DNA of 23,668 nucleotides. It comes from a virus. The first letter of the stretch is position 1. Every line of letters starts with the position of its first letter. The translations under genes and the position numbers were made by a program. Under the pieces are notes generated by a model. That model was not told where the DNA came from. It searched no databases and worked only from the letters and a program-made list of their open reading frames with translations. The stretch lies in IMG/VR virus record IMGVR_UViG_3300009151_000396, positions 1 to 23,668 of that record; one strand, given 5' to 3'. Below are positions 18,908-21,591 of the stretch, piece after piece.

Positions 18908-19528
18908 TCAACCTTTCTTCAATGCTGCACGTTGTTTGGAATCAAATCGTGACCACAATGCCGTCTTTTCGTCAGCATCAAGGTTTTGATCGTCTATGTA
19001 TTTTTTTGCACTTTCAATATCGTTCAGATTAATTTGAGCAATGACTTCCTCCGCAACGTCAGACAAGAATTTTTGTTCATCGGCAGGCATGGTGTCCCAC
19101 ACAGAAACAGCTATTGACTTGGGCGCTGATTTGGTGGCTGCATTGCCGTCATCGTCCTCATTTTCCGGCGCAACACCAGCGGCAGCGGCAAGGCTATACC
19201 TGCGGGCATAAGTCAAAGCACTACCGTAACCCTGGGCATCTGCCTTGCTAACTGGCAAGTTAAGCACGCCACAAGACAGCCACTCACCGGATGCGTGGAG
19301 CAGGATTGTTTCGACGCGCACTTCGTCTTTGTCGCTAGGTTCGATCCGCTGAATGTAACTCAGTCCGCACTGACCAAATGCAGGGCGGATTGCTTCAACA
19401 ACCGAGGACAGGTCAGCATACTTTGACTTGAAAAACGGATTGGCGCTGTCTTTGATTGCGCCCTTGATGTTCATCTGCGCCATTGCAAGCGCGGTGGCTA
19501 GGTTGGTGATGCTTTCTGATTTGTTCAT
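18908..19528 (-). CDS. erf: ERF family single-strand annealing recombinase
   Basis: The start is ATG 19526-19528, preceded by AAAGG; the extra 21 residues of the longer frame are unlikely. The 206-aa product has both ERF hallmarks: NPFFKSKYADLSSVVEAIRP at residues 30-49 and GYGSALTYARRYSLAAAAGV at 100-119, followed by acidic ENEDDDGN. ERF anneals complementary single strands and is used by P22-like phages to circularise or recombine DNA. P22 Erf is of similar size (204 aa). The C-terminal 70 residues are less conserved and may include a self-association domain. It sits in the leftward early operon, as in P22. Confidence 0.92.
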   Translation of the reverse strand: MNKSESITNLATALAMAQMNIKGAIKDSANPFFKSKYADLSSVVEAIRPAFGQCGLSYIQRIEPSDKDEVRVETILLHASGEWLSCGVLNLPVSKADAQGYGSALTYARRYSLAAAAGVAPENEDDDGNAATKSAPKSIAVSVWDTMPADEQKFLSDVAEEVIAQINLNDIESAKKYIDDQNLDADEKTALWSRFDSKQRAALKKG

Positions 19529-19529
19529 T

Positions 19530-19625
19530 TCAGCAACCTTTCGCAAAACAAAAAATTTCAAGAAAAACATACAAAGACATTGATACAACACCAGTTGTTA
19601 ATAAGATTTTTTCGATGGTATTCAT
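19530..19625 (-). CDS. 31-aa hydrophobic peptide
   Basis: ATG 19623-19625 opens a 31-aa frame ending TGA (TCA 19530-19532). The core is one membrane helix (ILLTTGVVSMSLYVFLEIF). It sits between the 24-aa peptide and ERF with a TGATG overlap at its start, and its last codons (encoding AKGC) contain the ribosome site for erf. It may be a real micropeptide or a coupling ORF for erf translation. Confidence 0.45.
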   Translation of the reverse strand: MNTIEKILLTTGVVSMSLYVFLEIFCFAKGC

Positions 19626-20351: not shown

Positions 20352-20392
20352 CTTGACAAGATAGCTTTGCACAGGTTACGCTTGTTTGCAAG
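20352..20392 (+). promoter_or_regulatory. Rightward early promoter (PR-like) with CTTG/CAAG dyads
   Basis: TTGACA (20353-20358) is a perfect -35. A weak -10, TACGCT (20377-20382), lies 18 bp on. The -35 lies inside the palindrome CTTGACAAG (20352-20360), and CTTGTTTGCAAG (20381-20392) covers the -10/start region. A related CTTGTTGCAAAG lies at 20304-20315 near the leftward promoter. Repeated half-sites over both promoters fit operators read by the adjacent Cro-like protein. Confidence 0.55.
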
Positions 20393-20415
20393 TTTCTTTA
20401 CCTATAAGGATTGAT

Positions 20416-20637
20416 ATGAACGTTCAACAAGCAGAAGCGCATTTCGGCAATCGTAGGAAGCTGGCAGAGGCGCTAGGCATCACCAGTCAGGCGATCAGCC
20501 AATGGGTCAAGCGCAAGCAAATGCCCGAAGGCGTTGCCTACAAACTCGAAGTCATTACCGGCGGTGCTTTGAAGGTCAACCCCAATGACTACATCCCCGT
20601 CAAACAGATGGTGGCAGAGATCGTCCCGCAGCAGTAG
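20416..20637 (+). CDS. Cro-like HTH regulator
   Basis: The ATG at 20416 has AAGGA upstream; an in-frame start at 20386 would place the start within the promoter region and is rejected. The 73-aa product has MNVQQAEAHFGNRRKLAEAL and GITSQAISQWVKRKQMP, with the HTH at residues about 14-33, then GVAYKLEVITGGALKV, the shared tail of Cro/YdaS-type regulators. It presumably binds the dyads next to it and turns down early transcription. It is the first gene of the rightward operon, and the leader promoter starts at its stop codon. Confidence 0.87.
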   Translation: MNVQQAEAHFGNRRKLAEALGITSQAISQWVKRKQMPEGVAYKLEVITGGALKVNPNDYIPVKQMVAEIVPQQ

Positions 20638-20805: not shown

Positions 20806-21591
20806 ATGAACTACTACGAGCACCACTTAGGCGACTACGCGCAAGCAACCGCGCACCTCACTTTTCTTGAGGATGCCGCATATCTGCGGATGATCCGAAA
20901 ATACTATGCCGAGGAAAGCCCGCTGCCGGGTGACGTTTCAGCTATACAAAGGTTGATAGGTTGCCGCACCCGCGAGGAACGAAAAGCTGTTGATGTGGTG
21001 CTCGCAGAGTTTTTTTTCTTGGAAGGTGGGCATTGGCACAATAAAAGGTGCGATCAGGAAATTGCTCGGTTTCGGGAGAAGCAAGACAAGGCCCGTCATA
21101 GTGCAAACGCTCGTTGGAGCAAAGTGCCAACGCAGTCCGATGGCAATGCGAACGCAATGCGAACGCATAGCGAAGGCAATGCTCACCAGTCACCAGTCAC
21201 CAAACACCAGTCACCAGTAATAAATACACCGCCTGAAGGCGTATCAGAATCCGTATGGAAAGATTTTCTCTCGCTCAGAAAGACTAAGCGGGCGACAGTC
21301 ACAAAAACGGCTATGCAAGGGATTGAACGGGAGGCACAGAAAGCAGGCTTAACCCTACAGGCTGCTTTGCAAGAGATGTGTGCAAGAGGGTGGACGGGAT
21401 TTAAGGCTGAGTGGCTGCAAAAGAAAGGCAGCTATCACGAATCGTTGACAAGAACTGGATCATCAATTTTTGGAGGTGTGCGCCATGAAAGAGAAGTTGC
21501 CGGATGCGTGGATCAAGAAAATCTTTCAGGTAATGCACGCCAATTACGGATTGAAGTGGTTACGGATGTGGATGGCGGGACAGGTAGTTGA
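20806..21591 (+). CDS. O-like replication protein with DUF1376 domain
   Basis: The start is ATG 20806 with AGGGA before it; a TTG at 20638 would turn the leader into protein and lacks family support. The 261-aa product opens MNYYEHHLGDYAQATAHLTF, then AAYLRMIRKYYAEESPLPGD, the standard DUF1376 domain (about residues 1-90). This domain is frequent in phage replication initiators placed before a loader gene. The linker (about 108-145) is encoded by tandem DNA repeats (see 21131-21217). The C-terminal domain is about 145-225. The end overlaps the next gene by 107 bp in another frame. It probably binds its own repeats to start replication. Confidence 0.85.
   Translation: MNYYEHHLGDYAQATAHLTFLEDAAYLRMIRKYYAEESPLPGDVSAIQRLIGCRTREERKAVDVVLAEFFFLEGGHWHNKRCDQEIARFREKQDKARHSANARWSKVPTQSDGNANAMRTHSEGNAHQSPVTKHQSPVINTPPEGVSESVWKDFLSLRKTKRATVTKTAMQGIEREAQKAGLTLQAALQEMCARGWTGFKAEWLQKKGSYHESLTRTGSSIFGGVRHEREVAGCVDQENLSGNARQLRIEVVTDVDGGTGS
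21131..21185 (+). repeat. 11-bp tandem repeats, candidate origin iterons
   Basis: Four consecutive 11-bp units follow one another without gaps: GGCAATGCGAA (21142), CGCAATGCGAA (21153), CGCATAGCGAA (21164) and GGCAATGCTCA (21175). A weaker fifth copy, CGCAGTCCGAT (21131), precedes them. The period is not a multiple of three although the repeats are in a coding frame, so a DNA-level role is likely. Confidence 0.7.
21183..21217 (+). repeat. 7-bp tandem repeats beside an AT-rich stretch
   Basis: Five 7-bp units abut: TCACCAG, TCACCAG, TCACCAA, ACACCAG, TCACCAG. They directly follow the 11-bp repeats and are followed by the AT-rich TAATAAATAC (21218-21227), a possible unwinding site. The units encode HQSPV-like peptides, so a protein-level linker repeat is a competing view. 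Confidence 0.65.

Follow-up and report, generated by a model that had tools for sequence, protein, structure and literature searches.

A likely phage replication origin inside a DUF1376 gene, with repeat arrays and a palindrome conserved at the DNA level

Does a gene for a DUF1376 protein, a family without an assigned function in Pfam and termed 'primosomal' in PHROGs, contain the replication origin of the phage that carries it? The question is raised by a 23,668-nucleotide stretch of viral DNA (IMG/VR record IMGVR_UViG_3300009151_000396, positions 1 to 23,668; hereafter, the window), for which a preliminary description, made from the sequence alone, had proposed an iteron-like origin hidden inside an O-like replication gene.

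The locus and its gene products

The gene in question (Table 1) encodes a protein whose residues 2-87 match PF07120 (DUF1376) over the full model (101.5 bits against a curated cut-off of 30.1, E=3.5e-29) and whose residues 108-211 match phrog_678, 'replication initiation O-like' (E=7e-20); it has several further PHROG matches labelled 'primosomal protein'. In AlphaFold2 models, the N-domain (pLDDT 89) has helices at residues 20-36, 44-50, and 56-69 and strands at residues 71-73 and 76-78, pLDDT exceeds 93 over most of residues 141-200, and the linker is predicted to be disordered. We infer from the topology of its model that the N-domain is winged-helix-like. Fold searches against the PDB gave no significant match for either the N-domain (best E=0.22) or the full protein, so DNA binding by the N-domain is inferred only from this topology and from the co-inheritance described below. 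The DnaD N-domain was rejected as a fold relative, being only a weak neighbor (2vn2, E=1.2), and no sequence relative of the protein was found in the PDB, where the best hit (LTV1, E=0.006) was taken as chance.

Table 1. Features of the proposed origin and its surroundings (positions in the window)
Feature	Position	Strand	Description
ERF-type single-strand annealing protein	18908-19591	-	left of the Cro-like gene
Cro/YdaS-type regulator	20386-20637	+	P22_Cro E=3.3e-18, YdaS_toxin E=4.2e-10; upstream of the DUF1376 gene
DUF1376 gene	20806-21588	+	261 aa; putative replication initiator and site of the proposed origin
N-terminal domain, aa 1-105	20806-21120	+	proposed iteron-binding domain: helices and a two-strand wing
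11-bp iteron array	21125-21182	+	unit TGCGAACGCAA, 5.3 copies; TRF score 60
7-bp array	21183-21218	+	unit ACCAGTC (core ACCA), 5.1 copies; TRF score 58
A/T stretch TAATAAATACA	21218-21228	+	10/11 bases A/T; between heptamers and palindrome
Palindrome CGCC-TGAA-GGCG	21230-21241	+	codes for some of P-P-E-G-V; may be the right-hand edge of the origin
C-terminal helical domain, aa 148-220	21247-21465	+	proposed contact to helicase or loader
Next ORF, 122 aa	21485-21853	+	proposed helicase-loader/P-position protein

The two repeat arrays are the highest scoring of the 12 tandem arrays that Tandem Repeats Finder reports in the window (the third scores 43); the 7-bp array begins at the very next base after the 11-bp array, and both lie within the coding sequence. 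Each 11-bp unit is a 10-bp near-palindrome, TGCG-AA-CGCA, plus one base. The 7-bp array is A/C-rich on the sense strand, and we infer that it may be an unwinding or single-strand element. The preliminary description had reported 11-bp and then 7-bp arrays inside an O-like gene, followed by an AT-rich stretch. The arrays held, its units GGCAATGCGAA and TCACCAG being TGCGAACGCAA in another register and a rotation of ACCAGTC, respectively; the AT-rich stretch also held but is short. The interval that it gave, 21131-21227, misses 6 bases of the first 11-bp unit and stops short of the palindrome.

The order of regulator and DUF1376 gene is the same as in ydaS-ydaT-ydaU of the Escherichia coli Rac map. 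The early region, with its ERF-type protein, is of lambdoid type, and the phage is probably temperate, a likely assignment; a DNA search of the isolated-phage collection found no overall relative of the window. The claim that the next gene is P-like is weakly supported, as it rests on position and on a single depositor annotation, 'replication protein P', of a homolog in MW202520 (E=1e-8). The 122-aa ORF has no Pfam or PHROG match at 1e-3, the downstream gene has no PF06992 (Phage_lambda_P) match in two related phages, and an hhalign profile comparison with lambda P gave no match (probability 0.7%), so the product is not demonstrably P. Across isolated phages and Rac, the neighbor of the DUF1376 gene encodes an IstB/DnaC-like ATPase, a helicase loader, a DnaB helicase, or a primase/helicase.

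DUF1376 genes are common in beta- and gammaproteobacterial phages and prophages (Acinetobacter, Vibrio, Moraxella, Pseudomonas, Xanthomonas, Burkholderiales, and E. coli Rac). Within a set of Polynucleobacter and related genomes (L087-L103, L112), many Polynucleobacter genomes carry a DUF1376 gene of the window's type with TGCGA(A/T)CGCA units, and several of them have ACCAGAC-type heptamers. DUF1376 is rarely mentioned in the open-access literature that was searched; one passing mention places the protein in a list of shared proteins beside a putative helicase loader. Subscription papers lay outside this search, and an earlier report is not excluded.

Conservation of the arrays and the palindrome at the DNA level

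The self-match of the DNA at a given lag in the best 24-nt stretch was compared with that in sequences whose synonymous codons had been shuffled within each gene, a null that keeps both the protein and its codon usage. With 5,000 such shuffles, the window gene was significant at lags 7 (p=0.0008), 11 (p=0.0004), 14 (p=0.0008), and 22 (p=0.0016), and every other lag between 5 and 29 had a p of at least 0.02. The same analysis was applied to 158 non-redundant DUF1376 genes drawn from viral and bacterial contigs. At p<0.01, where ∼1.6 genes are expected by chance, lag 7 was significant in 95 of them and lag 11 in 66, with harmonics at lags 14, 21, 22, and 28. Among the remaining lags not divisible by 3, most were significant in 0-7 genes (lags 5, 8, 10, 13, 16, and 17 near chance), and lags 3, 6, 9, 12, and 18 were significant in 8-14, some genes having a hexamer array. 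When one representative was taken from each of 24 clusters of ∼55% N-domain identity, 16 were significant at lag 7 and 12 at lag 11, and a second null gave 106 and 88 of the 158 genes, respectively. Among the isolated phages with helicase-type neighbors, Vibrio 1.052.A, Acinetobacter P1068, and Moraxella Mcat18 have both periods; Xanthomonas Rb1, Thalassomonas BA3, and Pseudomonas phPA-G have lag 7. Of the 158 genes, 14 lack an array signal.

Control regions of the same genes gave lag 7 in the N-domain of none of 158 and lag 11 in the C-part of 2 of 155; lag 7 appeared in the C-part of 10 genes, probably because the linkers vary in length. As a positive control, lambda gene O was significant (p<0.02) only at lags 20, 23, and 24, which match the distances between its four annotated iterons. 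Applied to a gene with a proven origin in its coding sequence, the synonymous null thus picks out that origin alone.

Codon changes between relatives were counted as well. Among seven close relatives, synonymous codon differences numbered 2/202 in the array, compared with 67/698 in the N-domain and 109/345 in the C-domain. Among six relatives at intermediate distance (N-domain identity 69-73%), identical residues had a changed codon in 11/123 cases in the array, 242/431 in the N-domain, and 127/183 in the C-domain, so that 91% of shared codons are unchanged in the arrays, against 44% and 31% in the two domains. The arrays of these six relatives retain 83-90% DNA identity at a protein identity of only 62-80%. 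Based on these results, the 11-bp and 7-bp periodicities and the sequences of their units are kept at the DNA level, beyond what the protein needs, across DUF1376 genes. Selection at the DNA level had been called likely in the preliminary description, and this claim held. The check that it proposed came out in its favor, as relatives keep the DNA period and units while the residues vary; the outcome that it named as a refutation, residues kept and periodicity lost, is the opposite of what is observed.

Unit sequences differ across the family. The 11-bp units include TGCG-AA-CGCA+A (the window's type), AACG-nn-CGTT+C (GTTCAACG), C-run types, and AACCCAAGCC. The heptamer core is nearly always ACCA (for example, ACCAATA, ACCAGAC, and ACCAAGA), with a sense-strand composition of 51% A, 33% C, 7% G, and 9% T. 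In all 51 genes in which both arrays are significant, the heptamers follow downstream of the 11-bp units. In several genes, an extra array of the gene's own 11-bp unit lies inside the DUF1376-coding part (aa 35-65), and this part has 428 matches to the unit against 119 expected (66 genes).

These second arrays occur at coding nucleotides ∼106-200 (in L023, L042, L045, L161, L206, and others), where they spell even conserved residues such as MRTHSDCIA. In some genes, a hexamer array (CAGATA, GAGACA, or a C/A-rich 6-mer) seems to stand in for the heptamer array, with lags 6 and 12 significant instead of 7; examples are those of Pseudomonas phage AH02 (L256:592-1398) and Limnohabitans phage DC33 (L248:10211-10942) and genes encoding PTPTPTP linkers. 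The DC33 record (L248, PQ492659) is 39 kb long and filed under Inoviridae; its size and gene content resemble those of a tailed phage, and the label is likely a taxonomy error.

The type of iteron follows one part of the protein. Two relatives (L010 and L020) have the window's C-domain (89% amino acid identity) and palindrome but another N-domain (48% and 34%, respectively) and another array; in L010, the downstream gene is also the same as the window's. On a tree of 34 N-domains, the iteron type changes 3 times, compared with a minimum of 6 and a mean of 10.6 in 200 shuffles, and on the C-domain tree it changes 8 times (shuffles, minimum 7, mean 10.6). These data show that iteron type goes with the N-domain, not with the C-domain. 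Such co-inheritance matches what would be expected if the N-domain reads the iterons, an inference for which there are no binding data. The types that track the N-domain (such as TGCGAACGCA and GTTCAACG arrays) are natural protein-site pairs for specificity.

The palindrome was analyzed through its wobble positions. In genes encoding x-P-x-G-V, the third base of codon x forms a Watson-Crick pair with the third base of the Gly codon in 57 of 66 cases, against a permutation mean of 28.1 (p<1e-4). All four pair types occur (G-C 36, A-T 14, C-G 4, T-A 3), the changes are largely silent, and there are only 2 G-U style pairs. On a 40-gene tree, there are 9 changes on each side of the palindrome and 11 in the pair state, which means that the two sides mostly change together. 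The independent-pairs test of this covariation was not significant, there being too few supported branches and most of the covariation falling on poorly supported ones. A best-stem test per gene recovered the palindrome at p<0.01 in only 3 of 95 genes, as it is too short for most single genes, and for this reason the case rests on the position-specific wobble covariation. We conclude that the downstream palindrome is conserved at the DNA level across DUF1376 genes, with branch support that is low for the formal pair test.

Other lineages (L083, L115, L174, L113, L201, and L208) have a different palindrome after the heptamers, such as CCCCCGCAAGCGGGGG encoding P-R-K-R-G. This suggests that a hairpin is preserved even where the amino acids that it encodes differ.

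The origin reading and its rivals

We consider it likely, with a probability of about 0.8, that positions 21125-21241 are a phage replication origin inside its own initiator gene, laid out like ori-lambda; binding and origin activity are inferred. In the proposed mechanism, the DUF1376 N-domain would bind the near-palindromic 11-bp iterons, whose spacing of about one helical turn would place them along the same face of the DNA, to form an O-some-like complex. Strain from this complex would open the neighboring A/C-rich heptamer array and A/T stretch, and the C-terminal domain would draw the product of the next gene, a helicase or loader, to the strand thus exposed. The palindrome would mark the far edge of the origin or aid loading or priming. 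That the heptamers act as a single-stranded track is a possibility raised by analogy with the single-stranded DNA binding of lambda O, and no data bear on it. A GC-skew switch at the site, which the preliminary description had offered as a check, was not found: the window has none, four complete relatives do not show one consistently, and the skew minima of these relatives fall at places other than the array.

If correct, the origin reading gives a likely specific role to a widespread family of unknown proteins and predicts the origins of many phages from sequence alone. It also describes one stretch of DNA under three constraints: a protein, two repeat periods, and a hairpin.

The rival that survives best, which we still regard as unlikely, is that the arrays are DUF1376 binding sites that act as an autoregulatory operator (by roadblock or repression) or as another control site. 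Conservation at the DNA level and co-inheritance with the N-domain indicate a binding site equally well under this explanation, and a gene for a Cro-type regulator lies upstream. Against it, the site is ∼320 bp inside the gene rather than at a promoter, the heptamer array and palindrome follow in a fixed order that has no obvious operator role, the neighbors are helicase-loading genes, and the layout matches that of the lambda origin.

A second rival, very unlikely in our view, holds that phages swap N-terminal modules by way of the short repeats, which would make the site a recombination hotspot or module junction. The exchange seen in L010 and L020, which share the C-domain and palindrome (and, in L010, the downstream gene) with the window and differ in N-domain and array, speaks for it. 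However, the arrays are conserved also where no swap is seen, and a swap replaces the array along with the N-domain, so the array is cargo rather than shared crossover homology.

That the conserved element acts as RNA, as an mRNA hairpin or an antisense target, is likewise very improbable. The palindrome could fold in mRNA, and covariation cannot separate RNA from DNA; however, the 2 G-U style pairs stand against 57 Watson-Crick pairs, and tandem near-palindromic 11-bp units are well matched to a protein that binds double-stranded DNA. A terminator is ruled out by the lack of a U-tract after the hairpin.

A further rival, also very unlikely and by now largely refuted, is that the repeats are a by-product of slippage or of protein-level selection in the linker (NQEPITN, HQTPDT, and MRTHSEGN repeats), for which it can be said that the linker is predicted to be disordered and that 7-bp repeats necessarily encode a 7-residue repeat, whereas the signal survives a null that keeps every amino acid (which rules out purely protein-level repeats), slippage under frame selection favors multiples of 3 rather than periods of 7 and 11, and synonymous change is suppressed in the arrays.

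Comparison with known origins

The lambda origin, with its iterons and AT-rich tract, sits in the middle of gene O (PMC7466680); dimers of O bind to these iterons (PMC5043065), and single-stranded A/T-rich DNA is a further ligand of O (PMC7466680). The window resembles ori-lambda (four 18-bp iterons) and the six-iteron lambdoid origins in having near-palindromic iterons inside the initiator gene (PMC3349717, PMC7466680). Lambda and the window also share an order: iterons, an A-rich stretch, and then an inverted repeat with a 4-nt loop. The 12-nt inverted repeat of lambda lies just past its AT-rich tract (L243:563-590), the same place in the layout as the window's palindrome. Both systems divide the initiator into an N-part and a C-part, and the arrays of both are detected by the same synonymous-null test. 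A helicase-loading gene lies downstream in lambda, and genes of this kind are neighbors in DUF1376 relatives; in the window, this place is taken by the 122-aa ORF, which is not demonstrably a loader. The lambda-like layout claimed in the preliminary description thus held, as DNA-conserved intragenic repeats, an adjoining A/T tract, and an inverted repeat beyond it are all present.

The two systems differ in that the window's units are 11 bp long and gapless, compared with 18 bp with spacers in lambda, and in that 7-bp units form a second tandem array in the window at a place where lambda has nothing but its AT-rich tract; to our knowledge, this heptamer array has no lambda counterpart. The A/T stretch of the window, at 11 bp, is shorter than the 38 bp of lambda (PMC3349717), and the DUF1376 family contains several unrelated iteron types. 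A profile of 25 DUF1376 sequences showed no detectable homology to lambda O by hhalign (probability 0.2%, E=0.26), and only the linker/C-terminal part of the protein resembles PHROG 678. The term 'O-like' therefore held in part, for the layout and the C-terminal PHROG match and not for homology to lambda O; because no such homology is detectable, we propose that the DUF1376 origin works like ori-lambda but that its protein is not a member of the lambda O family.

A second comparison is offered by the Rac prophage of E. coli K-12, in which ydaU encodes a DUF1376 protein, with ydaS on its upstream side, matching the window, and ydaV, which encodes an IstB/DnaC-like ATPase, after it. The ydaU linker has a lag-23 periodicity (11.5x2 bp, p=0.0005) with GTGTTCAAAC-like units, followed by an A-rich stretch and CCCCCGGGGG; compared with the window, the units are more degenerate and there is no heptamer array. 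Rac has a functional origin, oriJ (PMC3945230), for which no placement within ydaU was found in the open-access literature searched.

A bolder reading would join these observations. In it, DUF1376 proteins are a widespread class of initiators, distinct from lambda O, that reached the same intragenic design; the same codons carry two codes, one made of N-domain-specific 11-bp duplex iterons and the other of an ACCA-core, strand-specific 7-bp track for single-stranded loading or unwinding that is absent from lambda; and oriJ lies in ydaU. Taken jointly, these propositions remain tentative, and we would put the odds slightly against all of them being correct.

The origins of iteron plasmids differ from the proposed one in that their sites are not inside coding sequence and their Rep proteins belong to another family. 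They share with it the placement of tandem initiator sites beside an unwinding region, and the unwinding region of plasmid P1 itself carries 7-bp repeats.
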